Below, piece after piece: positions 32,867 to 63,027 of a stretch of 64,000 nt of DNA. The notes beneath the pieces were generated by a model, which had not been told where the DNA came from, made no database searches, and saw nothing but the letters and a program-made list of their open reading frames with translations. The stretch spans positions 1 through 64,000 of the forward strand of contig JAIETF010000028.1 in assembly GCA_019745415.1 (NCBI GenBank), read 5' to 3'. This DNA is from Candidatus Obscuribacterales bacterium. Its GTDB lineage: Bacteria; Cyanobacteriota; Vampirovibrionia; Obscuribacterales; Obscuribacteraceae. How positions within the stretch are numbered: position 1 is the first letter of the stretch; every line of letters starts with the position of its first letter. The translations under genes and the position numbers were made by a program.

Positions 32867-35461
32867 GTGGTAAAAAACCATAGTGAGGTACCTCGCAGTC
32901 GTAAGTCGCTCAAGGAGCGGCTGCGTGGTATCACTGCAATCGAGTTGGGAGCCGTGGTGTCTATCCTTATTGTGATATGCGCCCTAGCCCTCAACATCGC
33001 CGTTCTAATATTTGCTGCTGATATGTGCGACAGAGCCTGTAAGGACTGCGCCCGTTCAGCCGGACAAATGGCAAGAGTGGGTCAAGCTGTTGATGCTATG
33101 CAAGCATCACTAAGCACCCACCCTGTAGACGGCACGGTCATCCAAAGCTTGACTGCCGAGCTAGTAACCTATGAAGACTATCTGCAGTCGCCGAACAACG
33201 GTTCGCCAACGACTACCGGTACCAATGGACCCATTGGTACAACAACCGGTGGTGCAGCAGGCGTGCCCTTGCCTGGCTCGGGAGGTCCTGGAAGTTCTCC
33301 TGGTCCTTTCGTATCGGTAAGAACCACCCTTGTAGCCCGTATTCCGGCTCCAATCGTGTTCTTCCAAGCCAATTTCGGTGGCGCAGCCAATGCCGGACAA
33401 GGTTCTCTCGCTGCAGGCAACGGTTTGATCACATTCCAGAGCTTGTACACTTATCCGATTACCAACACAGCAGGCCCGATAAGCCTTGGTAATACGGGCG
33501 GCGCTCCCGGTCCCGGCGGCGCTTCAACAACCGGAACAAGTAGCCCCGGCGGACCTGGTGGTCCCGGTGGTCCCGGCGGTCCTGGTGGTCCCGGCGGCGG
33601 TGGTGCTTCCACCGGCGTTCTGGGTAGCACCGACGCTGGTCCCACAGGTCCTATTGGTCCCGGTGGTCCTTTGGGTCCTGCCGGTCCTAACGGTCCCGGT
33701 GGTCCCCAAGGTCCCGGCGGTCCTCTCGGTCCCGGTGGTCCCAGTGGTCCCGGTGGTCCCTTAGGTCCCGGCGGTCCCAGTGGTCCTGGTGGTCCCCTCG
33801 GCCCTGGTGGTCCTGGTGGTCCCGGTGGTCCTGCTGGTCCTGGTGGTCCCTTAGGTCCTGGTGGTCCCAGCGGTCCTGGTGGTCCTGGTGGTCCCGGTGG
33901 TCCTGGTGGTCCCGGTGGTCCCAGTGGTCCCGGCGGTCCTAAAGGTCCCGGCGGTCCTGGTGGTCCTGGTGGTCCTGGCGGTCCTGCTGGTCCTGGCGGT
34001 CCTGCCGGTCCTGGCGGCCCTGCCGGTCCTGCCGGTCCTGGCGGTCCTGCCGGTCCCAAAGGTCCTGCCGGTCCTGGTGGTCCCAGTGGTCCCGGTGGTC
34101 CTGCTGGTCCCGGTGGTCCTGCTGGTCCTGGCGGTCCTGGTGGTCCTAGTGGTCCTAAAGGTCCCGGTGGTCCCGGTGGTCCCAGTGGTCCCGGCGGTCC
34201 TGCCGGTCCTGGCGGTCCTGCTGGTCCTGGCGGTCCTAGCGGTCCTGCCGGTCCTGGCGGTCCCAGTGGTCCTAAAGGTCCTGGTGGTCCCGGTGGTCCT
34301 GCTGGTCCCGGTGGTCCTGCTGGTCCCGGTGGTCCTAGCGGTCCCGGCGGTCCTAAAGGTCCTGGCGGTCCCGGCGGTCCTAGTGGTCCCGGCGGTCCTA
34401 GCGGTCCTGGTGGTCCTGCTGGTCCTGGCGGTCCTGCCGGTCCTGGCGGTCCCAGTGGTCCCGGCGGTCCTAAAGGTCCTGGCGGTCCCGGCGGTCCAAG
34501 CGGTCCCGGTGGTCCCAGCGGTCCTGGTGGTCCTGCTGGTCCTGGTGGTCCTGCCGGCCCTGGTGGTCCAAGCGGTCCTGGTGGTCCAAGCGGTCCTAAA
34601 GGCCCTGGTGGTCCTGGCGGTCCTGGCGGTCCCAGCGGTCCTGGCGGTCCCAGTGGTCCTGGTGGTCCTGCTGGTCCTGGCGGTCCTTCCGGTCCTGGCG
34701 GTCCTGGCGGCCCAAGCGGTCCTAAAGGCCCTGGTGGTCCTGGTGGTCCTAGCGGTCCCGGCGGTCCTAGCGGCCCCGGTGGTCCTAGCGGTCCCGGCGG
34801 TCCTAAAGGTCCTGGCGGTCCCGGTGGTCCTAGCGGCCCTGGCGGTCCCAGCGGTCCCGGTGGTCCTAGCGGTCCCGGTGGTCCTGCCGGTCCTAAAGGT
34901 CCTGCTGGTCCCGGCGGTCCTGGCGGTCCTAGCGGTCCTAAAGGTCCTGGCGGTCCCGGTGGTCCTAGCGGTCCCGGCGGTCCTAGCGGTCCTGGTGGTC
35001 CCAGCGGTCCTGGCGGTCCTAGCGGTCCGAGCGGTCCCGGTGGTCCCAGCGGTCCTAAAGGTCCTGGCGGTCCCGGTGGTCCCAGTGGTCCCGGCGGTCC
35101 TAGTGGTCCCGGTGGTCCCAGTGGTCCCGGCGGTCCTGGTGGTCCCGGTGGTCCCGGCGGTCCCAGCGGTCCCGGCGGTCCTAGTGGTCCTGCTGGTCCT
35201 AGCGGTCCCGGTGGTCCCAGCGGTCCCGGCGGTCCCGGCGGTCCTACCGGTCCCGGCGGTCCTAGTGGTCCCGGCGGTCCCGGCGGTCCTAGTGGTCCCG
35301 GCGGTCCCAGCGGTCCCGGTGGTCCATTCGGTCCTAGTGGTCCCGGTGGTCCCGGCGGTCCTAGTGGTCCCGGCGGTCCCGGCGGTCCTGGTGGTCCAGG
35401 CGGCGTCGGTGGTCCCGGCGGTCCCAGTGGTCCAGCTGGTCCAGGAACAGTCGGCGGATAA
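32867..35461 (+). CDS. TadE-anchored collagen-like protein
   Basis: An 864-residue protein with a very strong AGGAGGAGG site before its GTG. Residues about 20-65 are a TadE/TadG-type membrane helix with a Cys-rich following segment ([13 protein letters not shown]). A 150-residue non-repetitive region follows, and from about residue 225 to the end the chain is Gly-Pro-X repeat, where X is mainly Gly, Ser, Ala, with Lys at intervals. Such Gly-x-Y tracts form collagen triple helices, so the product is predicted to be a trimeric stalk fixed in the envelope by a pseudopilin-type anchor. There is no C-terminal sorting or globular head domain. The gene has its own leader after the upstream terminator and is closed by a UUCG-loop terminator. 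Confidence 0.8.
33547..35446 (+). repeat. collagen-like Gly-Pro-X coding repeat
   Basis: About 1.9 kb of 9-base-period sequence built on GGTCCNGGN, encoding Gly-Pro-X triplets. Because GGTCC is near-palindromic when read in register, the opposite strand also stays open and reads as Gly-Pro-Pro/Leu. The tract has no stop codons in several frames, so many long ORFs here are artefacts. Confidence 0.9.
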
Positions 35462-50321: not shown

Positions 50322-51476
50322 CTAGGCAAGCAGGACTTCCCGGCAAGTTTTATCGCGCAGACGCCATATAGCGCCATCGGCGGTGAAATGATGGAAGTTG
50401 ATGCAGGCCTGAATGATGGTAGCCGTGGCCACAAAGTCGAAACCATAGTTCTCAAGTACCTTAGGAATGCAGACATAAATGAGAAAACCGGCCGATATGA
50501 CCATACCCCAGTAAAAACGACCATCTCTAGAAAAGCACTCGCGCAAGACATGTCGACTGACCTCTGCCATGCGGTCGCGAGAAATCTTCAAAGCTTTCTC
50601 TTTCAAAAAGAAACTGACCGAAACAGCAAGATATTGACTGCCATGGAAGAAGGGCGGTCCGTAGACCCAAAGAATGGCATGGGCCATACCAGTTGACAAG
50701 CCGATGCCCAAAATGGTGAAGACCAGACAGAGAGATGGCAAGGGAAAGTACTGTTTCTCGAGTATGGCTTTGCGCAGCAAGACATAGACGAAGGCACAAG
50801 ACATGACCGCAAAAATAACGGTACAAACTTGAGCCAGTATTTCGGGCAGGGCATAGAAAGGCAGCTTGACGCCCCAGAGATCATCGGGTGAATGGTCGCG
50901 ATAGCAAAGAATTCTAGATATGACAAAGGCGGAAAAGCTATGCATAAACCAACGATAAGTTTCGCGTTCCCAATTCTTCAGGACATAGCCGCGTTTATAG
51001 CAATAGACCAGAGAAATCCCGAATGTCTGTCCGACATAATGCTGAAAGACCCACATCAAATGCAGATAGACACAAAAGCCTGCCGCCCTTGGATAAAGCA
51101 AACAAAGTGAAAAGAGAAGCAAACTCATCCAGGGAAGATAGTAAGCGTAAAGCTTGAATCTCTCCCGGTTTTCCGCTGTCGAATAGATGCGCATATAAGT
51201 CGAGACAGTATGAGCATCGGCAAATAAATAGGTGCCTAAAGTCTGGGCTAGAAGCAGACCATATGAAGCAGTGCCAGCCAAGCCCGGCGCCTTGGGATCG
51301 AGAGTATCCCAATGAAACCAATAAATTTGGAGCATGAACAAGATCCAGAAGAATCCGCCCACCACAAAAAGATAGTCGAATACTGGACCCACAACCCAAG
51401 AATAAGGGCTTGTCGAGGTCGCCACCGCCTGCGGTTGCGAAGGAGCGCTATCTGAGCCGAAGGTTGCACTTACCAT
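50322..51476 (-). CDS. His-rich polytopic membrane protein, copy 2
   Basis: A 384-residue protein of unknown family with about nine helices. The ATG at 51476 has a GAGGT site and opens MVSATFG, matching the N-terminus of the neighbouring paralogue. Conserved with that paralogue are FADAHTVSTYMRIY, FQHYVGQTFGISLVYCYKRGY, PPFFHGSQYLAVSV, and NFHHFTADGAIWRLRD near the end. The many His and Asp residues in or near helices suggest metal binding. The last block resembles a motif seen in other uncharacterised bacterial membrane proteins, but no function is known to me. It follows the paralogue after 20 bases. Confidence 0.7.
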   Translation of the reverse strand: MVSATFGSDSAPSQPQAVATSTSPYSWVVGPVFDYLFVVGGFFWILFMLQIYWFHWDTLDPKAPGLAGTASYGLLLAQTLGTYLFADAHTVSTYMRIYSTAENRERFKLYAYYLPWMSLLLFSLCLLYPRAAGFCVYLHLMWVFQHYVGQTFGISLVYCYKRGYVLKNWERETYRWFMHSFSAFVISRILCYRDHSPDDLWGVKLPFYALPEILAQVCTVIFAVMSCAFVYVLLRKAILEKQYFPLPSLCLVFTILGIGLSTGMAHAILWVYGPPFFHGSQYLAVSVSFFLKEKALKISRDRMAEVSRHVLRECFSRDGRFYWGMVISAGFLIYVCIPKVLENYGFDFVATATIIQACINFHHFTADGAIWRLRDKTCREVLLA

Positions 51477-51496
51477 GGGACTACCTCTTAATAGAA

Positions 51497-52621
51497 TCAG
51501 GCCAAGAGTATTTTTCGGCAATAAGGGTCGCGCAGACGCCAGATAGCGGCATCAGTTATGAAATGGTGATAGTTGACGCAGGCAAGAACCAAGCCGCCGA
51601 CCATCGAAAAGTTAAATCCAATCTGCATAAAGAAATGCGGGATACCAACATAAAAGAAAACGCCGGAAAGAATGACCAATCCCAAATACTTCATGCCTGG
51701 TGCACCCATAGCCTGTTTGGATATCTCCCAGGTATTCATACCTTCAGGCATGCCGCGCTCTTTTAGATAATAGGCGAGACAAACAGCAAGATACTGACTG
51801 CCATGGAAGAATCCAGGCACATAGAACCAGAACATTGTATTGGCAACATCTTTAGATAGACCGAGACAAGCCACTGTGAAAATCAAAAGGAAGGCTTGCC
51901 AGGGCATGACCTTATCTTCACGCAGATACTTGCGGACAAGCACGATGACGAAGGCTACAGCCATAAAGAAGAAAAGGAAACGAGATGTATTGTGGAAGAC
52001 CTCGGGCAAAGGTCCCCAAAAAGGAATGTCGACACCGTACCAGTTGCGCGGACTGAGGTCGCGAAAGGTGAGGAAGCGAATCGTAGTCCAGCCGACCATA
52101 GAGAACATAAACCAGCGAAATATCTCTTTCTCTATGGCTGTCATGTAATAGCCGCGCTTATAACAATAAATGAGCGCTATACCAAAGGTCTGCGCCACAT
52201 AATGCCAATAAACTGTAATAAGGTAGATGTAGACAAAGATACCGGTTAGCTCAGGCTTACTCAGTCCCATTATGAACATAGGAATAGTCGAGTAAGCCAG
52301 CCAGGTGCGGTGGAATTTAAAGCGAGCCTGGTCTTCGGCCGATCCCCAGATGCGCAGATAAGTAGCGCTATTATGCGAATCGGCAAATAAATGTTGAGAG
52401 AGAAAGCCGATAGTAACAAGCCAGAAAGAAGCCGGGTCAGTCAGCGATGTGGGTATTGTCCAGCCCAAATAGAGATAATTGACGACATAAAATATAAGAG
52501 CGCCGCCGCCGCAAATGAAAAAGAAATCGATGAAAGGAGAGATGATCCAGGGGTAGGGTTTTTCTGATGAAGCGCTCTTAGGAGCGTCCATACTGCCTGC
52601 GGACATTGTGCTGCTTACCAC
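51497..52621 (-). CDS. His-rich polytopic membrane protein, copy 1
   Basis: A 374-residue paralogue of the protein at 50322. The GTG at 52621 (GGGAG upstream) is preferred, because its N-terminus MVSSTMSAG aligns with that of the second copy. Shared blocks are FADSHNSATYLRIW, YWHYVAQTFGIALIYCYKRGYY, PGFFHGSQYLAVCL, and NYHHFITDAAIWRLRD. The helices run through most of the chain. Position-conserved His and Asp residues could form a metal site, as in membrane di-metal oxygenases, though this is inference. It leads the leftward operon of six genes. Confidence 0.7.
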   Translation of the reverse strand: MVSSTMSAGSMDAPKSASSEKPYPWIISPFIDFFFICGGGALIFYVVNYLYLGWTIPTSLTDPASFWLVTIGFLSQHLFADSHNSATYLRIWGSAEDQARFKFHRTWLAYSTIPMFIMGLSKPELTGIFVYIYLITVYWHYVAQTFGIALIYCYKRGYYMTAIEKEIFRWFMFSMVGWTTIRFLTFRDLSPRNWYGVDIPFWGPLPEVFHNTSRFLFFFMAVAFVIVLVRKYLREDKVMPWQAFLLIFTVACLGLSKDVANTMFWFYVPGFFHGSQYLAVCLAYYLKERGMPEGMNTWEISKQAMGAPGMKYLGLVILSGVFFYVGIPHFFMQIGFNFSMVGGLVLACVNYHHFITDAAIWRLRDPYCRKILLA

Positions 52622-52667
52622 TGCGTCTCTCCCTCTTGATTTTGGAGTTTCTCTCCAACCCAACTCA

Positions 52668-52748: not shown

Positions 52749-53726
52749 TCACACTCGACTTAAATAGTACGGCGCAGTTCTCTCCACCGTCTGCTTGAAC
52801 GGGGTGGCAACAAAACCCAGTTCTTCCTTTGCTTTGTCACTTTTGAAAAATATTCGTTTACAACTCAAAAAGGCCTGCTGTCTGGTTAGGGTTACTTTCT
52901 CTTTCGGCGCCCCGGCCATCACCGCCAGTTCGGCAAATTCGCCGGCTAGACGGACAAGCCATTCCGGCAGCTCGAAAAGAGGCGGGCGACAGTTATAAAT
53001 TTGAGCAAAAATGCAAGCCGCCTCTCTAAAAGTAAGATTGGCACTGACCAAGTTATAGCGTTCACCGGCTCGACCCTTCGAAATAGCGCTCAAATGGGCG
53101 GCGACCACATCTTCGATGTCTGAAAAGGGAATACCACCGGGGGGAACAGCCAACACCCCATCTTTCATACTGCGAAAAATAGCCAAATGGTGAGGATGGG
53201 TATCGCCCTCGCCGAAAACAATACCGGGATTGAGCAAGACTACATTCAAGCCCTGCCTGAAAAACTCAAGGCAGACCTGTTCTGCTGCATGCTTGGTATC
53301 ACAGTAAGAGAGTCCTCTACCGGCAAGGTTGTAAACAATAGTCTCATCCCCGAAGCTTCCCTCTTTGACTAGCTCTTGGTCGGGCAGGCCGAGAGCGGCG
53401 ATGGAGCTTGTCTGGATGACGCGAGCACCCATGGCATGGGCTATTCTCATCAGATTACGAGTGCCTTCTACATTTACTCTCATCTGTTCGGCTAGATCGC
53501 TTGTGCGATAGCTGACCATACCGGCTAAATGATAGACAACATCGAAGCGCCTGGTGCCGATAGAGCTTTCTACAGACTGCCAATCTCTTAAGTCGCAAGA
53601 AATAAATTGGTAATCGAACGGGGGCTTGTTGCGGCCAAGAAGGGTGAGATTATACCCGGCTTGGGCAAGGGCTCGCACCAGATGCTTACCGATAAAGCCC
53701 GAGGCGCCGGTCACCAAAACATCCAT
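52749..53726 (-). CDS. extended SDR, NAD(P)-dependent epimerase/dehydratase family
   Basis: A 325-residue extended short-chain dehydrogenase. The nucleotide-binding GASGFIGKH is at the N-terminus, an Asp-type CDLR follows the second strand, and the active site YxxxK is in YCDTKHAAEQ, preceded by the Ser in TSSIAALG. It resembles dihydroflavonol reductase/HpnA-like enzymes. The substrate is not known. It is the last gene of the seven-gene leftward operon, and its ATG overlaps the stop of the SDR gene upstream by one base. Confidence 0.82.
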   Translation of the reverse strand: MDVLVTGASGFIGKHLVRALAQAGYNLTLLGRNKPPFDYQFISCDLRDWQSVESSIGTRRFDVVYHLAGMVSYRTSDLAEQMRVNVEGTRNLMRIAHAMGARVIQTSSIAALGLPDQELVKEGSFGDETIVYNLAGRGLSYCDTKHAAEQVCLEFFRQGLNVVLLNPGIVFGEGDTHPHHLAIFRSMKDGVLAVPPGGIPFSDIEDVVAAHLSAISKGRAGERYNLVSANLTFREAACIFAQIYNCRPPLFELPEWLVRLAGEFAELAVMAGAPKEKVTLTRQQAFLSCKRIFFKSDKAKEELGFVATPFKQTVERTAPYYLSRV

Positions 53727-54724
53727 TATCGGCGCGAACCTTTATGCGGGTCTATCGTCTCGTTGTTGACCTTGCCGGCATAAGCTCTATAACTAGACAA
53801 TGCCAGATTAAGCGGAGTCACCTCAGTAAGTTGGCTCAAAACGTTGTTTTGGGTGACATTGTCTATAGTGGCAAGATAGGCTTGGTCGCTACTCAAGATA
53901 GGAACATCGCTGATTTTCTCACTTATTGATGCAAGCACCGATGCCAGCTTGTAAGGCAAAGGCAGGAAAGGTTTCGTCTTTCCGACTACAGCCAGAAGCC
54001 TTTCCACAAAGATTCTCATTGTCAGCTTCTCAGCCCCACCAATTTCAAGAGTGGTCCCCGCAAGATCGGCTCGCGCAAAAGTCTCGACTATAGCCAAGGC
54101 TAGATCACCGACATATACAGGCTCGATAAGATTGTGTCCACCGTCTATCAAGGGTATAAAGGGGCGCGAAGCGGCTATTTCTAAATAACGCTTCACCAGT
54201 TTACTGTCGCGTGTGCCCACCTGACGGCCGACTATCAAAGACGGCCTCAAAACTGTAAGACTTTCTGCCAGCTGCGCCCTTGCCGCTTCTTCCGCCAAGG
54301 CTTTGCTTTTGAGATAAAGCGACTGAGACTCTCTATCAGCACCAAGGGCGGTGACCATCACAACTCTTTCCAGCCCAGCTTTCAGGGCACAAGAGGCGAA
54401 AACAGAAGCCATTTGGGGATGCAAACCCTGAAAAGTTTCACCACGGCGCGGGGCAATTGAGCCGATAAGATGCAGCCCATAACTTACACCAGCAAAAGCG
54501 GCAGTCAGAGCCGCATCGTTAGCAGTATCAGATTGTTCAAGTTTCAGTTGAGCGATACAAACTTCGGCACCGAGCGATTCCAGGGTGGCCCGGTCCACCG
54601 GTCTCGACTGGGGACGTACCAGCGCTCTCACTGCATAGCCTCTATCAATTAGGGCTTTGACTGCATGTAAACCCAAATAGCCGCTGGCGCCGTCAACTAG
54701 AACAGTTTTCATGTCTGTGTTCAT
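53726..54724 (-). CDS. SDR/NmrA-like NAD(P)-binding protein
   Basis: A 332-residue protein with GASGYLGLH at the N-terminus, an Arg-rich cofactor-specificity stretch (RALVRPQSRP) suggesting NADP(H), and a possible active-site YLKSK motif after the third strand. It is an atypical member, close to NmrA or complex I NDUFA9-like SDRs. ATG codons lie at 54724 and 54712 within a 12-base tandem repeat, so the start is uncertain by four residues. It overlaps the DUF962 gene by about 32 bases and runs into the next SDR by one base. Confidence 0.78.
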   Translation of the reverse strand: MNTDMKTVLVDGASGYLGLHAVKALIDRGYAVRALVRPQSRPVDRATLESLGAEVCIAQLKLEQSDTANDAALTAAFAGVSYGLHLIGSIAPRRGETFQGLHPQMASVFASCALKAGLERVVMVTALGADRESQSLYLKSKALAEEAARAQLAESLTVLRPSLIVGRQVGTRDSKLVKRYLEIAASRPFIPLIDGGHNLIEPVYVGDLALAIVETFARADLAGTTLEIGGAEKLTMRIFVERLLAVVGKTKPFLPLPYKLASVLASISEKISDVPILSSDQAYLATIDNVTQNNVLSQLTEVTPLNLALSSYRAYAGKVNNETIDPHKGSRR

Positions 54725-55100
54725 GTCTGTGCTTTCTTCTCGGCTTGGCTCGGCTGAAACCGCTGAAGCTATTGCCCATGCTATTTAAGTTGGTCGCCCT
54801 CGATTTGAAGCCGCTTGCCTTCAAGATTTTCTTGACCAAGAGTATTTCACCTACTTCATTACCTTGACTTCTGTGGCCAATGAACTGCAACCAATAGCCG
54901 AGGACCAAACAAGAAAGGCCAAGACCCTTCTCTTTGAGGTTGCTGGAGAAAAGCTTGTAAATACCAAAAAAAGCTAGAGGCACGCCGAAAATGTGCAGCA
55001 AAGAATTGACGGGATGCTTATGACGCTTGGCATAATCGCTGAGGAAGCCCACCGCCGCATTCTTAGTTTTGCGCAAAACCACTGTTCTTGGAAAAGTCAT
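54693..55100 (-). CDS. Mpo1-like (DUF962) membrane protein
   Basis: A 135-residue protein matching DUF962. It has HKHPVNSLLHIFGVPLAF, a helix, then YWLQFIGHRSQGNEVGEILLVKK. The His residues in the first block and in the FIGH motif are the conserved ones. The yeast member Mpo1 is an Fe(II)-dependent dioxygenase of 2-hydroxy fatty acids in phytosphingosine breakdown. The C-terminus is a His/Arg-rich tail (HRHEHRHEN) encoded by a tandem repeat. Its place among SDRs and a GH3 enzyme suggests lipid-related chemistry. Confidence 0.72.
   Translation of the reverse strand: MTFPRTVVLRKTKNAAVGFLSDYAKRHKHPVNSLLHIFGVPLAFFGIYKLFSSNLKEKGLGLSCLVLGYWLQFIGHRSQGNEVGEILLVKKILKASGFKSRATNLNSMGNSFSGFSRAKPRRKHRHEHRHENCSS
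54708..54731. repeat. 12-base tandem duplication across a gene overlap
   Basis: TTCATGTCTGTG (plus strand) occurs twice in tandem. On the minus strand it gives two alternative ATG starts for the SDR and, in the other frame, the His-Arg-His repeat at the tail of the Mpo1-like protein. Confidence 0.8.
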
Positions 55101-55107
55101 CTAAACC

Positions 55108-56130
55108 TCACTTCGCTTGAGAAATTCTGACAATTGTCTCCTGCATAGCCTGCGAAAAGCCGACACAGTCGGCACAGGGATAGCCCAGAACTTTGCGGGC
55201 TTTCTCAATACTGAAGCCCTGATTGACTGCAATCAACCGATAGGCTCCCGGCGAAAACCGAGCAAACTGTGCCTTGCTTTTCTCGTTAAAGATACCTGAT
55301 ATTGAGCCGATTGTACCCATGATCTCAAACAGAGATTTAACCACTGCTCTTGGCAAATTTTTCTTAATACGAGGCACTCCTAGGGCATCTGCCACGGTAT
55401 CAAAGAGCATTTTCTTACTAACAAACTCTGGGTCGGTTACATTAAAAATCTGGTCGTAGGAAGCTTCATTCAAGAGACAGACCTTAATAAGGCTGCTCAA
55501 GTTGCGCACATAAACTACATTAGTCGACCTGGCGCCGCCGTCCACAAGAATTGCTTGTCCTTTAGAGACAGATTGCATAACTCGCTTCAACCAGGCTCTC
55601 TCGCCCTCACCATAGATGAAACCCGGTCTCAGGATTGTTATAGGAAGCCCACCGTGCATAAGCCCCTGCAGATACTTTTCGCTTTCCACCTTGCTATCAG
55701 CATAGGCTTCGCCACAGAGACATAGGGGAGCTTGCTCATCAAGATCAAATTGGTCATGCTGCCCGGTAATCACCGAAAGAGAGCTAATATGAATGAACTG
55801 CTTCACTCCACAAGCCTTAGCAGCTTGGAAGGCATTCTCGGTACCTTTGAGATTGACCGCAAATATTTTTTGCCTATCGGCAAGAGGATCGACAAAACCA
55901 GCAGCATGCACCACTACGTCTAAGCCTTCAAAGGCCGCTTCAAGAGCGGCTTTGTCTAAAACATCGGCAGCGGCTGTCTCGAGGTCGCCCCGCCTTAGAA
56001 CAGCATCGACTCGCCGAGCTATAGCCCGCACTTTGATAGCAGAATTTTCAACCGATGACTGGTCGGATAGATAAGAAACCAAGTCGGAACCGACAAGACC
56101 GGTAGCGCCGGTAATACCAACTCTGATCAT
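55108..56130 (-). CDS. extended SDR, 3-beta-HSD/epimerase-like
   Basis: A 340-residue SDR with GITGATGLVGSD at the N-terminus, DVVVHAAGFVDP after the fourth strand, ISSLSVI and YADSKVESEK as Ser and YxxxK active-site blocks. It resembles 3-beta-hydroxysteroid dehydrogenase/HpnA-type enzymes. The ATG at 56130 is preferred because GAGGG lies 8 bases upstream; an ATG at 56154 overlapping the GH3 stop by 4 bases is the alternative. It lies inside the seven-gene operon, between the GH3 enzyme and the DUF962 protein. Confidence 0.8.
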   Translation of the reverse strand: MIRVGITGATGLVGSDLVSYLSDQSSVENSAIKVRAIARRVDAVLRRGDLETAAADVLDKAALEAAFEGLDVVVHAAGFVDPLADRQKIFAVNLKGTENAFQAAKACGVKQFIHISSLSVITGQHDQFDLDEQAPLCLCGEAYADSKVESEKYLQGLMHGGLPITILRPGFIYGEGERAWLKRVMQSVSKGQAILVDGGARSTNVVYVRNLSSLIKVCLLNEASYDQIFNVTDPEFVSKKMLFDTVADALGVPRIKKNLPRAVVKSLFEIMGTIGSISGIFNEKSKAQFARFSPGAYRLIAVNQGFSIEKARKVLGYPCADCVGFSQAMQETIVRISQAK

Positions 56131-56150
56131 TGCACCTGCCCTCGATGCAG

Positions 56151-57821
56151 TCATAAGGCGGCAATCCGATCGGCTATTCCGCCCTGACTTAATAAAGGAA
56201 TCTTGACCTGCGCCTCCGGCGCGCCTTCCATAACGCGCATCTGCCTTAGACGAGCATAGGTGCCGGCCTTAAGAAGTTGCAAGCGTGGTGGTCCAAGGCG
56301 GCGGCTGTCTCTCTTGTCGCAATATTCCTGATTGTTCTCTTTAAGGTGGCGGTCGAATTCCTGCAAGAACTTTCTTTCAAAATCTTCGTTGCCGAAAGCC
56401 GAATGATCTACCTCGGCATAACATAGATAGTAGGGCGGCCGGTCCAGTACCACTTCGGCGGTAAAATGCTTAATCTCAGAGAGGTCAAGCTTTGCCACCG
56501 AGCCCTTCAAAGCTGCTAGAACCTGTTCTTCGGTAATCTTTTCTCCGGTGACCGAGCTGACACCACCGCCTTTTCTGACAAAGCTCAAAACAGGAGTGGC
56601 ATGCAGAATATCTTCAACCAGCATCAGGTCATTGATGTTATAGCGATAAAGACCGGCACTGGTGGTGAAATATATGAAGTAGCGCTCGCCCTTCTTCAGT
56701 TCATCGGCAAGAAGAAAACGAGGGCTGGCATTCTCAATCTCATCTTCATGGACAAATTCAAAGAAATGAGATGTTACCGCCAAGGGTCCGGCGGCGGATT
56801 TGGAATCTATGGGTACCGTGCCTCGGCCTTCCGAAGCCATATAGCCGAAATCTCGGATCTTGATGTCGCCATAAAGCTCGGGTAGTTGTTCGAGATAAAA
56901 ACCCATAGGGCCGCCTTTCCAACAAGAGAAAACTTCTACATCAGGAAAAGCTTGTTTAGGCAAAATCTGCCCTTCTTTCTCTAAGATGGCTGCCAGCTGA
57001 GCAGCACGGCTGGGATCTGGCCTGAGATAGGGAGTGAAGGCATTGAGAATACGACTGCTCACTCCTTCGGTATAACGAGGATTGATAGCCCCCCTAGCTA
57101 TATCATCGATGAGACTCTCAGCACGATGTCGCAATTGGTCAGCCAGTAGTAGAAATGAAGAAGGATTGCAACCGAGCATGGCGCTTACGTTCTGCACCAA
57201 GGCGGCGCGCAAAAGCAAATAATATTTGGCATCAACATCTTTGATCTGACAAAGTTCAAAGGGTAGGGCGAAATGTCTTCTAATCACCGGGCTCTGATTG
57301 CGATTGAGCATGCCCGAGACGGCACCATAAGGCAGGCCGCACTCAGTTCTGCCTTCTTCGTCGTTAGAGGTGATGATCAAGAACTTGCCAAACGCCCCGC
57401 GGGGATGATCTTTGATCAGATGGTAATTATGTACCTGGAAGGCATGAGTATAATCGCGCACATGGCTTTTGTTTATAGGCACGAATTTGGGCTTGGCTGT
57501 GGTACCGCTTGTAGTGGCAAACATAAAGGGCTCGTCAACGGTCAGTTGCCTCTTGCCTCCCTTGCACAAAGACTCTATATAGGGTTCAAAATAGTCATAG
57601 CCGCTGGCCGGCACCCGCCGTCTAAAATCATCTAGTGAACTTATCTTGTCGAAATGATGAGCACGGCCAAAGCTGGTATCGGCATTTGCTTTGACCAAGT
57701 TCTGCAAGAAAGCTTCCTGCACCCGCCTAGGCTCTTTCAAACCATTAAAAAAACGACGTATATGGCTATGGCGCCTGATGAACTGACCGGCGAGAATATC
57801 TAAGTTAAGCAGTTCATTCAA
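56151..57821 (-). CDS. GH3-type acyl-acid amido synthetase-like enzyme
   Basis: A 556-residue ANL-superfamily protein. The P-loop MFATTSGTTAKPKFVPIN, the middle FGYMASEGRGTVPID block and the YFIYFTTSAGLYRYNINDLML segment are typical of GH3 proteins. In plants these join an amino acid to an acyl acid such as auxin or jasmonate after adenylation; bacterial members have unknown substrates. The TTG at 57821 (GAGGACAG upstream, 8-9 bases) is preferred over 57923, which would overlap the upstream gene deeply. With this start, it overlaps the enolase-family gene by four bases. Confidence 0.82.
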   Translation of the reverse strand: MNELLNLDILAGQFIRRHSHIRRFFNGLKEPRRVQEAFLQNLVKANADTSFGRAHHFDKISSLDDFRRRVPASGYDYFEPYIESLCKGGKRQLTVDEPFMFATTSGTTAKPKFVPINKSHVRDYTHAFQVHNYHLIKDHPRGAFGKFLIITSNDEEGRTECGLPYGAVSGMLNRNQSPVIRRHFALPFELCQIKDVDAKYYLLLRAALVQNVSAMLGCNPSSFLLLADQLRHRAESLIDDIARGAINPRYTEGVSSRILNAFTPYLRPDPSRAAQLAAILEKEGQILPKQAFPDVEVFSCWKGGPMGFYLEQLPELYGDIKIRDFGYMASEGRGTVPIDSKSAAGPLAVTSHFFEFVHEDEIENASPRFLLADELKKGERYFIYFTTSAGLYRYNINDLMLVEDILHATPVLSFVRKGGGVSSVTGEKITEEQVLAALKGSVAKLDLSEIKHFTAEVVLDRPPYYLCYAEVDHSAFGNEDFERKFLQEFDRHLKENNQEYCDKRDSRRLGPPRLQLLKAGTYARLRQMRVMEGAPEAQVKIPLLSQGGIADRIAAL

Positions 57822-59005
57822 AGTTCTGTCCTCAACTGTCGACTGTCTTTTAAACTTACGCCTAGACCAAATTGCTGTTCCGGCTTGAAAGAGACTACTG
57901 CACCAAAGGGTACAGTCTGACATTCTCTAGTCAAATCACGCCTGAGCAGAAATAAATTCATCGCCCCTTCCACATTGGTGAAAGTCTCAGGACAAGCGGC
58001 CAAAGCCAAGTGCTTCTGGGCTGAGGCTAAGATGCCTGACTCGCCAACCTGGGCACCCAGATGGGCTTCTATCTTGTTGGAGAGAGCCAGTTCGGTAAGC
58101 CTAACCGCCGCCATTATGCCGCCGACTTTAGAAATTCTAATGTTAAAGCCTCGACAAGCTTTTGTTTCAATCAATCGATTAGCCGAGTCGAGAGTAGTGA
58201 GAGACTCATCGACGATGATGGTCTCTTTAATGCGACTCTGCAAAATCGCCAGGTCGTGCACCGCGTCGGCGGGCAGAGGCTGTTCAATCGAAGCCGGGCG
58301 ATAGGGACGCAAGACTTCCATCATTCGCTCCGCCCGGGCGAGACTCCAGGCGCAATTAGCATCCAGCCTCAAAATGGTCTGAGAGCCCAAGACTTGGCGA
58401 GCCAACTTAACTTTAGCTAGATCATCTTCGTCATCTCCGCCGACCTTGATCTTCACGGTCTTAAAGCCATAAAGCTTATAAGAGGCAAGCAAAGCCGCTA
58501 AAGTCTGCTTTTTGCCAAAGGGCACCACTCCACCATAGCGAAAGAAAGCATCTTTCGGGTCGGTTCGAAATAGAGAAGAAGCAGCCAAACGGCAACAAAT
58601 AAACTGAGCCATGCCCAATTTGAGCAAGCGAGCCAGGGCATCTAAAAAAGCCAATTCAAAGGCGCAGAAGGAGGCACCAAGACTCTTTGAGTCTAAGCCC
58701 TTCTCGACAAAAAGCCCTTTGAGAAAATCAAGAATTGAAGCAACATCAAGAAAAGAGCGCCCCACCACCAGTGGTGCCAGAACCTCTCTGACATACTGCG
58801 CGGCCTCTTGAACGTTCTCTCCCGTGACATACAGCCTTGGCACTGATTCACCCAGCCCCACGACGGTCAGACCGGAGACTTCGTCTCTAAGATGCAGTTC
58901 GACAAAGACATTCTCAGAAAATCTACGACTGGCAAGTGCATGCCCGAATGCAAAGCGAAAAGGCAGATTGACTATACTGACATGAACAGCGCTGACTTGC
59001 ATCAA
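57818..59005 (-). CDS. enolase-superfamily enzyme, muconate lactonising/dipeptide epimerase subgroup
   Basis: A 395-residue enzyme of the muconate lactonising subgroup. The catalytic KxK is in TVKIKVGG, metal ligands in LRLDAN, SIEQP and VDESL, and the second catalytic Lys in RISKVGG. The subgroup includes o-succinylbenzoate synthase, dipeptide epimerase and N-acylamino acid racemase; these cannot be told apart by eye. No menaquinone genes are nearby, which argues against menC. A GH3 amido synthetase next to it suggests an acyl-amino acid or dipeptide-like substrate. A TTG at 59005 precedes an ATG at 59002. It lies 3 bases after the hydrolase gene. Confidence 0.82.
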   Translation of the reverse strand: MMQVSAVHVSIVNLPFRFAFGHALASRRFSENVFVELHLRDEVSGLTVVGLGESVPRLYVTGENVQEAAQYVREVLAPLVVGRSFLDVASILDFLKGLFVEKGLDSKSLGASFCAFELAFLDALARLLKLGMAQFICCRLAASSLFRTDPKDAFFRYGGVVPFGKKQTLAALLASYKLYGFKTVKIKVGGDDEDDLAKVKLARQVLGSQTILRLDANCAWSLARAERMMEVLRPYRPASIEQPLPADAVHDLAILQSRIKETIIVDESLTTLDSANRLIETKACRGFNIRISKVGGIMAAVRLTELALSNKIEAHLGAQVGESGILASAQKHLALAACPETFTNVEGAMNLFLLRRDLTRECQTVPFGAVVSFKPEQQFGLGVSLKDSRQLRTEL

Positions 59006-59008
59006 TTA

Positions 59009-59971
59009 CTAAGTAACTACCGGCTGGCGGGCAAGTATCCAGTCGGCCAGAACATGTGTGTATTCTTTGATCCAGTTGGCATCAAAATCGAGTGCATGTT
59101 GAGCATCTGGAAAAATACGCAAGTCTTTGGTCTGAGACTTGATACGAGAATACCAACCCTGCAACTTGTCCACATCAACAATGCGATCTGAGCCGGATTG
59201 CAAAATCAAGACCGGCATCTCAATAGAATTGCAAGCCTTTTCAGCCAGCTTAGAAAGCTTGAAAGACTCGACGAAGAAATTGGATGTTGCTTCAGTGAGC
59301 CGCAAAGTATCGCGCTTGAGAAAACCCTGAAAAGTAGGGTTATCGGTGAACATATCCACTTCTATTGGAATAGGCCACTTACGGTGCGCAGCACTGTCAC
59401 CACCTAAGATAGAGGTATAGGCGATTTGCAATTTAGTAGCGGCGCCATAATCTACTTTGGTAAAGATAGCAGGAGAGGTCAAAACCAAGCCGGCAATCGG
59501 TAAATTGAGTTCACCACCGACAGGCTTATAGTCTTTCTGAGCAATAACCGATGCAGCTTTTCCACCCCAGCAATTGCCAAGCAAAATAATAGGGTGTCCA
59601 ACAAAGTCAAAAGCAATTTTTCTTAAAATTACTTCTAGGTCTGCCAAGTAAGCTTTGTAACTGGAGAGATTACCACGGTCGCGAGGATTGAGCCCGGCAC
59701 CGCGTCTATCGGGGGCTATGACATTGATGCCCAGAGAATTGAGATGACTGGCTGTGTTCTCGAACCACTGGCTATGCCCTTCTATACCATGCAGATAGAG
59801 CACCACCGGATGGCCCAACTTGCCCTTCCAAATGCGAGTAGCCAGTTCCACTCCATCAGACATACGCATCTTCACGAAGTCGGGGGCTATTTGCTGTATT
59901 CCGGCAATAGAAGGCAGAGGGGTTGAGACAAGGTCTTTCAAGAAAAATACCGAAGTGGAGGCGCCATGCAA
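59009..59971 (-). CDS. alpha/beta hydrolase with Cys nucleophile
   Basis: A 320-residue soluble hydrolase. The oxyanion loop is LYLHGIEGHSQWF, the Arg/Asp block APDRRGAGLNPRDRG follows, and the nucleophile elbow reads GNCWGGKA, with Cys where most family members have Ser. The Asp is in LQSGSDRIVD and the His in FPDAQHALDFD. A Cys nucleophile is typical of dienelactone hydrolases and some thioesterase-like enzymes. The ATG at 59971 has no good ribosome binding site, and Met35 or Met37 would be alternatives that cut the N-terminal strand. It is the first gene of the leftward operon. Confidence 0.8.
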   Translation of the reverse strand: MHGASTSVFFLKDLVSTPLPSIAGIQQIAPDFVKMRMSDGVELATRIWKGKLGHPVVLYLHGIEGHSQWFENTASHLNSLGINVIAPDRRGAGLNPRDRGNLSSYKAYLADLEVILRKIAFDFVGHPIILLGNCWGGKAASVIAQKDYKPVGGELNLPIAGLVLTSPAIFTKVDYGAATKLQIAYTSILGGDSAAHRKWPIPIEVDMFTDNPTFQGFLKRDTLRLTEATSNFFVESFKLSKLAEKACNSIEMPVLILQSGSDRIVDVDKLQGWYSRIKSQTKDLRIFPDAQHALDFDANWIKEYTHVLADWILARQPVVT

Positions 59972-59991
59972 CTGTTGAGGAAAAGTTTAAC

Positions 59992-60909
59992 ATGCTGGCG
60001 GCGCCGGGCAAAGCAAGCCCAGGACGTAGTAAAGTATTAGACTTTACCCCCAAAGATAATCTTGGACCGATGTTAAAACCAGGGCTACACAACCACCAAA
60101 TCCTAAATAAGACTGATAAGGCGGGCAGCCTCAATAGACGCACCCTGGAAAAGCTGACCAGAATTTCAGAATCGTTGGCCTCGGCTCTTGAAGATGGCAC
60201 TTTCATCGAATCGATAGGCAAAGACATTAAGGCCGGCAAAGAAATCTGTCTTTATCTCTGGCCTTTCATTAAGGGACTGCCCGACAATATCTCTTCTGTT
60301 AAGGAAAAACTAGCCGCCAGTTTTTCAGAGCCGGAAACAGCTGCGGCGCTGGCCCCCGGTCTTAAGCTGTTGCAGCAACTTGCCGATGACGAGAGACATT
60401 ATCAGAACCTTTACTTAAATCAATGCCGGCTAGCCGGTCTAAGCCCGGAAGATTTGCAGGAAGTAGTAAAGAAAGTGCAGGAAAGCACAAGCCCTTACGC
60501 CGATCTCAGCAAAGCAATGGACCAGTTCTGTCAGGCAAGCAGTCCCCGCGAGGGTGTATTAGCAATAATCACCGCTGAACTTGCGGCCACGCAGTTTGCC
60601 CGCATCGCCTTACCGGCTTTCGAAGCCTATTTTGCCGGCAAGCCGCAACAATACCCCAGAGAACTGGTAGACACTGGTCTAGAATGGCTGCGCCTTCACG
60701 CCAAGCCCAACACCAGACACGCCATCTGGATGAGACGGCTCTTGCTGGTTGTAGAAGAGGAAGCAGAACAGGATCAAGATAATAGAGAACTTTCTAATAT
60801 TGGCACGCCCGGCGACCCAGGGTCCTCTAATTATTCTGAACCGGCAGTGGATAAAATCACCAACAGCTTGAAAGCAATCTGGAAAAATGACGAGCACGTA
60901 CTTAACTGA
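59992..60909 (+). CDS. haem-oxygenase-fold (TenA/HDO-like) protein candidate
   Basis: A 305-residue helical protein. The ATG at 59992 (GAGGAAAA upstream) is chosen over 59923, which would overlap the divergent hydrolase. After a basic N-terminus, helices show patterns of the TenA/PqqC/haem-oxygenase-like oxidase fold: CLYLWPFIKGLP, LADDERHYQNLYLNQC, ITAELAATQFARIALPAFEAYF, and LEWLRLHAKPNTRHA. The Glu in the first, Glu in the third and His in the last blocks fit diiron ligands. Assignment is from pattern alone and moderate. It diverges from the GH3/SDR operon with only 20 bases between. Confidence 0.5.
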   Translation: MLAAPGKASPGRSKVLDFTPKDNLGPMLKPGLHNHQILNKTDKAGSLNRRTLEKLTRISESLASALEDGTFIESIGKDIKAGKEICLYLWPFIKGLPDNISSVKEKLAASFSEPETAAALAPGLKLLQQLADDERHYQNLYLNQCRLAGLSPEDLQEVVKKVQESTSPYADLSKAMDQFCQASSPREGVLAIITAELAATQFARIALPAFEAYFAGKPQQYPRELVDTGLEWLRLHAKPNTRHAIWMRRLLLVVEEEAEQDQDNRELSNIGTPGDPGSSNYSEPAVDKITNSLKAIWKNDEHVLN

Positions 60910-60912
60910 TAA

Positions 60913-61686
60913 ATGATGCATCTGACCTTTAGAAATTACAGCCTAATATCTCTTGTCTTGGCGCTTGGCATGAGCACAGCCGTCTTGCCCGCCTGGGCAG
61001 GCAGTGCAAAGAAAGAAAGCAAAATAGCCATAGCCGGTATGGCAAGAGAGAACAAAGACAATTTCATAGATGCCCAAAGCTTTGTAGAAGAGATGTATAA
61101 ATGTGCAGACTCATACGAAGACTATCTCTTTGAATTTCAAATGATTGCCTTCAAAAAGGGTCGCGTAGTCGAAGAAGGCAAGTTCTTTTTCAAAAAACCG
61201 CAACAGATAAGACTGGAAGAAACCGGTTCCTTTAGAAGAGGCTCTATTGCAGTCAGAGGAAAAGAAGGCAAGATCAAGGCTAAAGCCGGTGGTGGTCTTG
61301 GCTTTATTGTTGTAGAACTTTCTCCCGATTCCGGGCTTTTGCGGTCAGCCAACGGGCATCCCATGGTTGAATCAGACCTCGCCTCATTAGCCCAGGCTCT
61401 GAGGTCTTATGTCAGACAAGGTAAGTCGCTGCGGGTCACATCCGAGCCAATTGACTACGGCGAAGACGAACTAAGCGAGAAAGTACATATTCTCGAAGTC
61501 TATCATGACAAAGAACAGACCGACATTTTTAAGCGAGTAACAGTGCATCCGCGCACTAAGCTACCTGTTGAATGGTGGGATTTTGAGAGAGGAAAGCTAG
61601 TCAGCCATTCAAAATGGAAGAGCTTCAAGGGTAATGTAGGTTTATCAGATCAGGTTTTCACCATCAAGGGAGAAAAAGTACAGTAA
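60913..61686 (+). CDS. LolA-like/DUF1571-type exported protein
   Basis: A 257-residue protein with a signal peptide (LISLVLALGMSTAVLPAWA). The mature part is a half-barrel lipid-binding type: YEDYLFEFQMIAFKKGRVVEEGKFFFKKPQQIRLEE, a strand-rich central part, and YHDKEQTDIFKRVTVHPRTKLPVEWWDF near the end. This is the layout of LolA/DUF1571 lipoprotein-carrier-like folds. It follows the HDO candidate after 3 bases and overlaps the ICMT-like gene by one base, so it is part of a four-gene rightward run. Confidence 0.7.
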   Translation: MMHLTFRNYSLISLVLALGMSTAVLPAWAGSAKKESKIAIAGMARENKDNFIDAQSFVEEMYKCADSYEDYLFEFQMIAFKKGRVVEEGKFFFKKPQQIRLEETGSFRRGSIAVRGKEGKIKAKAGGGLGFIVVELSPDSGLLRSANGHPMVESDLASLAQALRSYVRQGKSLRVTSEPIDYGEDELSEKVHILEVYHDKEQTDIFKRVTVHPRTKLPVEWWDFERGKLVSHSKWKSFKGNVGLSDQVFTIKGEKVQ

Positions 61687-62342
61687 TGGATGCGCATTTC
61701 TTCAATCCACCCACATGGGCTGTAGTAGCCCTGGCTACAGTGGCGGTAGCCCTTTCCACGCCTGTTCTGGCTAAAGGTTTCTCACGCCGCGGCAAAGGTG
61801 TATTTTACGAATCAAACTTCCTCATTCAGCGCGCACCACAACTAGTATCAGTCTTCAATATCGTGCTTGTCTTTATTAGCTTCTTCACTTATAACAATCA
61901 CATAAGTCCGCCGCTGGCCACCCCACTCTTCACACTCACGCAGGCAGAACCGGGCGCGCTCGGCATAGTTTCTTGGCTGGGTGTATTGGTAATGCTCTCA
62001 GGCTTCGTCTTTATGATCGGTGGTTGGTATTCATTGGGCGAAGCTTTTTCTACCGATGCGGAACTTTTAGACGGGCAGAAAGTCAAAGATACTGGTCTCT
62101 TGAAATTTGTTATGCATCCCGCCTATTCAGGCATAATCCAATCACTCACCGGTGCATCAATTGCCGCCCTCTCACCCTTGAGCTTGGGTCTGGCAGTTTT
62201 TGTAGTGGCTCCGCTCTGGCTTAACCGAGCCAAGTACGAAGAAGAACTTTTGATCAAGACCTTTGGTGACAATTACAAGGAATATGCAGCCAAACTGAAG
62301 TGGAGACGATTGGTACCAAGTTTCTTCCCAATTGGTGTCTAG
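61686..62342 (+). CDS. isoprenylcysteine carboxyl methyltransferase-like membrane protein
   Basis: A 218-residue membrane protein with about five helices. The C-terminal half has the ICMT/phospholipid methyltransferase pattern: VKDTGLLKFVMHPAYSGI, a helix, then NRAKYEEELLIKTFGDNYKEYAAKLKWR. In this family the conserved MHPxY and EExLxxxFGxxYxxY residues bind SAM and substrate. Bacterial members methylate varied substrates, so the acceptor is unknown. TAATG coupling with the LolA-like gene puts it in the same operon. Confidence 0.78.
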   Translation: MDAHFFNPPTWAVVALATVAVALSTPVLAKGFSRRGKGVFYESNFLIQRAPQLVSVFNIVLVFISFFTYNNHISPPLATPLFTLTQAEPGALGIVSWLGVLVMLSGFVFMIGGWYSLGEAFSTDAELLDGQKVKDTGLLKFVMHPAYSGIIQSLTGASIAALSPLSLGLAVFVVAPLWLNRAKYEEELLIKTFGDNYKEYAAKLKWRRLVPSFFPIGV

Positions 62343-62394
62343 TCTAAATGAAAGGCTTAGGCTAGAATCTTTACAACACAAAAGCCGGTGCCCG

Positions 62395-63027
62395 ATGAAA
62401 AAAATTCTGCATATCTTTGTTATATCCTCCCTGCTTCTAGCTGCAACCTCGCTGCCCTCATCAGCCCGCGATTCAAAAGCAAAAAATACAGGCAAAAGCG
62501 CAGGCGTCAGCGATCCTGATCGCGATCTAAATCGCGAATTAAATAAGGTAGAGGCCAGGGATAACTCCCAGTGGGCTTCCGGCTCTATCGTAATCAAGGC
62601 GCCGCCTGAAGTTGTCTGGCAAGCTGTGCATGATGAACGCAACAGCGACCCCGATCTGGCTTACAGCAAAATACTTGAACAGGGCGAAAACGAATGTAAG
62701 CTGGAGCAGAAATTCACATTCATTCCGGTTATAGGTACCGCCGTCTGCCAAATGTACAATCACGAAGTGCCCAACGAACGTATCGACTACAAACTAATAA
62801 AGTCGGACCGCTTCAAGGCAATGGAAGGTTCTTGGGTATTGACCGCCATGGAAGAAGGTAAGACCAGACTGGATCTTTCCACAAACCTCGATATGGGCAT
62901 ACCTGTTCCCAGAGGCATGGTCAACGCCATCACCGCTAAAAAGTTGGCGACAAGATTAAAGCACGTAAAAGAAATGGCCGAAACCAGACACGCAAAGTTG
63001 GCCCAAAATAAGAAAATCACCCATTAG
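62395..63027 (+). CDS. exported SRPBCC/START-like protein
   Basis: A 210-residue protein. The ATG at 62395 is preferred because a signal peptide follows directly (ILHIFVISSLLLAATSLPSSA); the frame is open to 62332, overlapping the ICMT gene. After a charged linker, the SRPBCC fold shows SIVIKAPPEVVWQAVHDER, a strand-rich middle, and a C-terminal helix (MVNAITAKKLATRLKHVKEMAE). SRPBCC domains hold hydrophobic ligands in a deep pocket. It ends a four-gene rightward run that may act on lipid-like compounds in the envelope. Confidence 0.75.
   Translation: MKKILHIFVISSLLLAATSLPSSARDSKAKNTGKSAGVSDPDRDLNRELNKVEARDNSQWASGSIVIKAPPEVVWQAVHDERNSDPDLAYSKILEQGENECKLEQKFTFIPVIGTAVCQMYNHEVPNERIDYKLIKSDRFKAMEGSWVLTAMEEGKTRLDLSTNLDMGIPVPRGMVNAITAKKLATRLKHVKEMAETRHAKLAQNKKITH

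Follow-up and report, generated by a model that had tools for sequence, protein, structure and literature searches.

A conserved seven-gene operon pairing a GH3-type amido synthetase with an enolase-superfamily enzyme in Obscuribacterales

A 64,000-nucleotide stretch of the genome of a Candidatus Obscuribacterales bacterium (contig JAIETF010000028.1, positions 1 to 64,000; here, the window) carries seven tightly packed open reading frames (ORFs) on its minus strand, from position 59971 to position 52749. They encode an alpha/beta hydrolase (abH), an enzyme of the muconate-lactonizing subgroup of the enolase superfamily (MLE), a GH3-type acyl-acid amido synthetase (GH3), a short-chain dehydrogenase/reductase (SDR1), an Mpo1-like protein (MPO), and two further SDRs (SDR2 and SDR3). 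The gene set, its order, and the catalytic residues are conserved, the operon GH3 proteins fall in one clade, and GH3 and MLE genes co-occur in three phyla. The operon very probably encodes a real, uncharacterized pathway in which an acyl chain and an amino compound are coupled and the conjugate is then remodeled.

The operon and its proteins

A first-pass annotation of the window had described a seven-gene block running in one direction and had named a family for each gene; the ORFs lie where it placed them, and Pfam matches back every family name. In the order abH-MLE-GH3-SDR1-MPO-SDR2-SDR3, successive genes are separated by 3, -106, -4, 7, -32, and -1 bp (the annotated -106 is probably -4), and 85 bp separate SDR3 from the next gene downstream. 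Because a scan of the locus for promoters and terminators returned sites no commoner than in shuffled sequences, the operon call relies on how tightly the genes are packed and on their conserved order. The layout is not a product of chance, since numerous other genomes share it, their orthologous proteins retaining as little as approximately 37 to 60% amino acid identity.

Started at the ATG at position 57923, the GH3 ORF overlaps MLE by 106 bp. The TTG at 57821 is probably the true start, given that it overlaps the stop codon of MLE in a TTGA, has GAGGACAG just upstream, and yields a protein whose length (Table 1) matches those of homologues (554 to 612 amino acids). The Pfam domains GH3, GH3_M, and GH3_C score 213, 64.8, and 68.3 bits, respectively (cut-off, 23.6 each), and the GH3 motifs are kept in an alignment of 16 sequences. 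The protein is 96% identical to the GH3 of Candidatus Obscuribacter phosphatis. The window genome, of Candidatus Obscuribacter type, spans 5.73 Mb (98% complete, 5.2% contamination).

In MLE, the residues K185, K187, D215, E241, D266, K293, and E346-G are invariant, and the hallmarks of the subgroup (the strand-2 KxK, the acidic metal ligands, and the strand-6 Lys) are all present; the KxK pattern was missed in 4 of 64 homologues. The solved structure closest to its profile is an N-succinyl-Arg/Lys racemase (2p88, 223 bits), and a predicted structure (pLDDT, 91.8) best matched dipeptide epimerases and the same racemase. Strand 8 of dipeptide epimerases ends in a functional DxD motif. The aligned region of MLE reads EG(S/A), retaining only the first acid of the motif, as in N-succinyl-Arg racemase, and membership among the dipeptide epimerases was rejected on this ground. 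MLE shares its fold, metal ligands, two-lysine acid/base pair, and single acidic residue at the eighth-strand position with 2p88 and, more generally, with the N-acylamino acid racemases of the subgroup. It differs from them in its low identity (approximately 23%), in the signatures PRxYVTGE, FNxRxSKxGG, and an invariant EG, and in its constant occurrence in GH3, SDR1, or abH contexts.

The nucleophile elbow of abH reads GNCWGG, and the protein has the signature HGIEGH...DRRGxG; the Cys bears out the Cys hydrolase of the first-pass annotation for this lineage. That description does not extend to the whole group: aligned copies from Obscuribacterales have a Cys nucleophile, as do two Chloroflexota copies (L013 and L135), and planctomycetes and a third Chloroflexota copy (L075) have Ser. 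Outside a sister family (f2), DRRGxG is kept in the linked abH copies. Because the nearest solved relatives of the profile are monoglyceride lipases and some copies in other phyla use Ser, abH may be either an acyltransferase or a hydrolase. The Mpo1-like protein has the conserved motifs RHxHP, LH, and GHxxQGNE and is assigned by its sequence to the Mpo1 family of 2-hydroxy-acid dioxygenases; its QGNE variant presumably sets it apart from yeast Mpo1.

Table 1. Operon genes and neighboring features of the window
Feature	Coordinates	Strand	Remarks
abH	59009..59971	-	First operon gene; Hydrolase_4, 135 bits; called from TTG, but a later start is possible
MLE	57818..59005	-	Enolase superfamily, muconate-lactonizing subgroup; MR_MLE_C, 126 bits (Pfam)
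GH3	56151..57923	-	Likelier start, TTG 57821 (~556 aa)
SDR1	55108..56154	-	Extended SDR; 3Beta_HSD/Epimerase (Pfam); type also adjoins MLE in planctomycetes
Mpo1-like (MPO)	54693..55100	-	PF06127/DUF962, 35.1 bits (cut-off, 24)
SDR2	53726..54724	-	Extended SDR; 3Beta_HSD/Epimerase (Pfam)
SDR3	52749..53726	-	Extended SDR, HpnA/3wj7-like; 3Beta_HSD/Epimerase (Pfam); ends the tight block
u60	59923..60909	+	Divergent neighbor, conserved beside operon; no confident family
Divergent neighbor	60913..61686	+	Remote DUF1571 homologue (hhalign, 91%; controls, <1%)
u61b	61686..62342	+	Divergent neighbor, conserved beside operon; PEMT/ICMT-like integral membrane methyltransferase family
u62	62332..63027	+	Divergent neighbor, conserved beside operon
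MEM1	51497..52663	-	His-rich integral membrane protein, no Pfam family; downstream in closer relatives only
MEM2	50322..51521	-	MEM1 paralogue, no Pfam family; downstream in closer relatives

Conservation and recurrence in three phyla

Obscuribacterales loci were collected by tblastn and profile searches, some of them representing one genome from two collections. A search for the same gene order, which the first-pass annotation had proposed, was strongly positive: the order is seen in many other Obscuribacteraceae genomes, and the full seven-gene order is present at the fetched loci L002 to L004, L006, L008 to L011, L014, L015, L027, L030, L032, L034, L036, L038, L039, and L045. Contig ends interrupt the operon at L005 and L007, and L012 lacks MPO and SDR3.

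The co-occurrence of GH3 and enolase-family genes that it had put forward as a sign of a pathway was likewise found. Across 194 Vampirovibrionia genomes, GH3 was present in 54 and MLE in 51, with both in 50. One genome (G007) had MLE without GH3, and the four with GH3 without MLE comprised three divergent GH3s from other families and one fragment. MLE adjoins GH3 in 47 of its 51 genomes, at a median distance of 113 bp; one of the four nonadjacent cases falls at a contig end, and the other three belong to f2.

The pairing recurs in two other phyla. Only 5 of 301 Chloroflexota genomes contain MLE, and GH3 is adjacent in all five; abH stands in front of the pair at L075 and L135, and at L013 the surroundings also hold another GH3 along with abH, SDR, and Mpo1-like genes. 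For 149 Planctomycetia genomes, in which operon-type MLEs score above approximately 200 bits with a gap down to approximately 190, both genes were present in 103, GH3 only in 7, MLE only in 2, and neither in 37 (Fisher's P of approximately 2e-25, ignoring shared ancestry). The two genes lie less than 12 kb apart in 23 of these genomes, with the recurrent arrangement FabZ-FabG-ACP-FabZ-KS-KS-abhydrolase-GH3-DUF1571-(response regulator, NicO-like)-MLE-abH (ACP, acyl carrier protein; KS, ketosynthase), and an SDR1-type gene adjoins MLE at L095, L096, L101, L138, and L139. The portion from FabZ to GH3 is itself common in Planctomycetia (L067, L068, L073, L080, L081, L120, and others) and resembles a highly reducing type II polyketide synthase (PKS). 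Nothing of this kind was found in the window genome. To our knowledge, neither GH3 nor MLE is a standard part of highly reducing type II PKS or aryl-polyene-like clusters.

In a 74-row tree of GH3 proteins, the operon copies and the MLE-linked Chloroflexota copies L013 and L075 formed one clade (support, 100/99), from which the planctomycete GH3s stood apart as a clade of their own. A second Obscuribacterales GH3, approximately 40% identical to the operon protein, also fell outside. It adjoins a GT21-like glycosyltransferase gene (L028, L029, L031, L033, L035, L037, L040, L043, L044, and L046), usually with a large NMO-KS-AT-ACP-KR PKS beside it as well, in what is a candidate glycolipid cluster. 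Neither this GH3 nor its PKS was found in the window genome, and the cluster is absent from the window genus. Together, the planctomycete KS-KS cluster and the PKS beside the second GH3 tie the GH3 clade to acyl-chain synthases.

A proposed acyl-amide pathway and its rivals

The bacterial GH3 enzyme OlsH makes N-acyl ornithine from a free fatty acid and ATP (PMC12493201), and N-acylamino acid racemases and dipeptide epimerases work by a lysine pair, two-lysine enolase-superfamily enzymes performing 1,1-proton transfer beside a carboxylate held by the metal, which often has an amide carbonyl as its second ligand (PMC8142540, PMC5808125). Both lysines are present in the MLE sequence. Amide ligation by GH3 (PMC12493201) and two-lysine proton transfer (PMC8142540, PMC5808125) would have an N-acyl amino acid as their simplest common metabolite. 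We give an approximately even chance (a probability near 0.5) to the view that the operon encodes a conserved pathway making an acyl-amide, either an N-acyl amino acid or a related amino-lipid, and infer its substrates, order of steps, and product as follows. GH3 would adenylate a free carboxylic acid, long-chain or polyketide-like, which the adjacent KS-pair cluster would supply in planctomycetes, and would join the activated acid to an amine or amino acid. MLE, a predicted Mg-dependent two-lysine enzyme, would remove the alpha proton of the N-acyl amino acid so formed and epimerize it or, alternatively, use the same enolate for elimination. An acyl-Cys intermediate on abH (acyl-Ser in other phyla) would allow the acyl group to be transferred or hydrolyzed, the three SDRs, SDR1 above all, would carry out keto/alcohol redox steps, and the Mpo1-like protein may oxidize or shorten a 2-hydroxy-acyl chain. 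The activation and amide formation, epimerization, redox, and hydrolysis proposed in the first-pass annotation are compatible with the conserved residues. The acyl-amide pathway is supported by the preserved seven-gene order, by the adjacency of MLE and GH3 in the class and in Chloroflexota, by their co-occurrence in Planctomycetia, by the acyl-chain synthases that accompany GH3 genes, and by the nearest relatives of MLE (2p88, which acts on N-acyl amino acids) and abH (lipid-acting lipases).

Several observations weigh against it. The sequence of MLE cannot tell an epimerase from an o-succinylbenzoate synthase (OSBS)-like enzyme or a cycloisomerase, and the Planctomycetia statistic takes no account of common descent. 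No dedicated PKS or other acyl source was found in the window genome, only two lone genes for FabF-type synthases, which lie apart and one of which sits in what looks like a fabG-acpP-fabF locus (assigned by ORF sizes only). The f2 operon (L131, L132, and L133) consists of abH-MLE-SDR1-MPO-SDR2 without GH3 (L132 ends before SDR2), SDR3 was not detected in the f2 operons seen, and a GH3 search of G007, an f2 genome 94% complete, found none; two f2 genomes have GH3 at another locus, of the second, PKS-linked type. A planctomycete genome, G316, has an SDR1-MLE pair with no GH3 among the matches listed. The pathway proposed in the first-pass annotation is well supported by gene order and co-occurrence but has separable parts: GH3, tightly associated as it is with the rest of the operon, may be separable from it, and the f2 operon, lacking GH3 and SDR3, makes the acyl-amide step separable.

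The f2 operons and the G316 pair would also suit two coupled modules, in which abH-MLE-SDR1(-MPO-SDR2) builds, cyclizes, or aromatizes a carboxylic acid, with MLE catalyzing an OSBS-like dehydration or a cycloisomerization of a polyketide-type acid, and GH3 merely conjugates the finished product. MLE scores 90 bits with the muconate cycloisomerase model and 73 bits with that of OSBS, and GH3.12, among the closest solved GH3s, works on substituted benzoates. We nevertheless hold such a division to be somewhat unlikely, as MLE is closest among solved structures to N-acyl amino acid and dipeptide racemases, not OSBS, and the MLE-GH3 linkage is very tight in two phyla. The plant enzymes (JAR1, GH3.12, and GH3.8) share the three GH3 Pfam domains and the nucleotide-binding motifs with the operon protein, which differs from them in being bacterial and operonic and in scoring only approximately 91 bits against the best solved plant enzyme. 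A further reading is catabolic: exogenous N-acyl amino acids or related amides would be salvaged or degraded, MLE turning the D form into one that the hydrolase can cleave and GH3 reactivating the acid. This would follow the logic of the N-succinylamino acid racemase pathway, in which a hydrolase accompanies a racemase. GH3 consumes ATP, however, and in planctomycetes is associated with ketosynthases and dehydratases; the conserved block includes no transporter, permease, or regulator, and it occurs almost throughout the family, as a core function would, all of which makes catabolism improbable.

The operon also recalls the OlsH/OlsI ornithine-lipid pathway of Singulisphaera acidiphila (PMC12493201), where a bacterial GH3 with the same nucleotide motifs stands beside an alpha/beta hydrolase in one operon and amide formation from a free acid is to be expected. 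Identity with that pathway was rejected on model score, tree, and abH profile search and is highly improbable: the OlsH model (NF052613, ornithine N-acyl synthetase) gives the window GH3 103 bits against a cut-off of 620, OlsH forms a separate clade far from the operon GH3s on a branch of length 3.84, and the abH profile matches nothing in four OlsH loci, so that the hydrolases are not recognizably related. Both GH3 types occur in planctomycetes, and the conserved block has an enolase-superfamily enzyme, an Mpo1-like protein, and three SDRs in place of an OlsG-like gene. We find it hardest to credit a set for alternative menaquinone synthesis or peptidoglycan-dipeptide recycling, even though the hydrolase-enolase-adenylating enzyme order recalls MenH-MenC-MenE and dipeptide epimerases are among the top structural matches of MLE. 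The block contains no murein peptidase or MenA/B/D gene, the DxD of dipeptide epimerases is not kept, and a classical menaquinone role, OSBS included, was rejected when a genome search for MenD, the only Men protein sought, returned nothing over the cut-off.

Neighboring genes and wider meaning

The divergent genes u60, u61, u61b, and u62 are kept beside most operon copies. Planctomycetes have a DUF1571 gene too, placed between GH3 and MLE, which makes the DUF1571-like neighbor a further part in common. The His-rich multihelix proteins MEM1 and MEM2 have invariant H97, H154, H287, H366, H367, and D371, and a MEM2-type gene is duplicated in tandem at L004:16933-19205. A structure model of MEM1 was poor (pLDDT, 65), and its search against the PDB gave no match better than an E value of 0.16; we speculate that the pair are possibly metal-dependent membrane enzymes. 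Elsewhere in the window, an 864-amino-acid ORF (32867-35461, plus strand) contains approximately 1.9 kb of 9/18-bp Gly-Gly-Pro-like, collagen-like repeats, which account for a 65% G+C peak.

In the literature on GH3 with enolase-family enzymes, planctomycete PKS, aminolipids, and Obscuribacter lipids (subscription papers and preprints being outside the scope), no description of the pairing was found, and papers on stieleriacines, aminolipids, and planctomycete PKS make no mention of GH3 with an enolase. It is possible, if doubtful, that these genes define a new and widespread class of bacterial acyl-amides, either metabolites or membrane lipids, assembled by an acyl synthase and GH3, epimerized by a dedicated enolase-superfamily enzyme, and common to Obscuribacterales, most Planctomycetia, and a few Chloroflexota.

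Bacterial GH3s are common, yet almost none beyond OlsH has a known product. The association of a GH3 clade with a specific enolase-superfamily clade over three phyla, including culturable planctomycetes, makes the pathway directly testable, and the action of an enolase-type enzyme on a GH3 product would, if confirmed, add a step new to the metabolism of acyl amino acids. Conservation of the operon across the family suggests that its product matters to the cells of this uncultured lineage.

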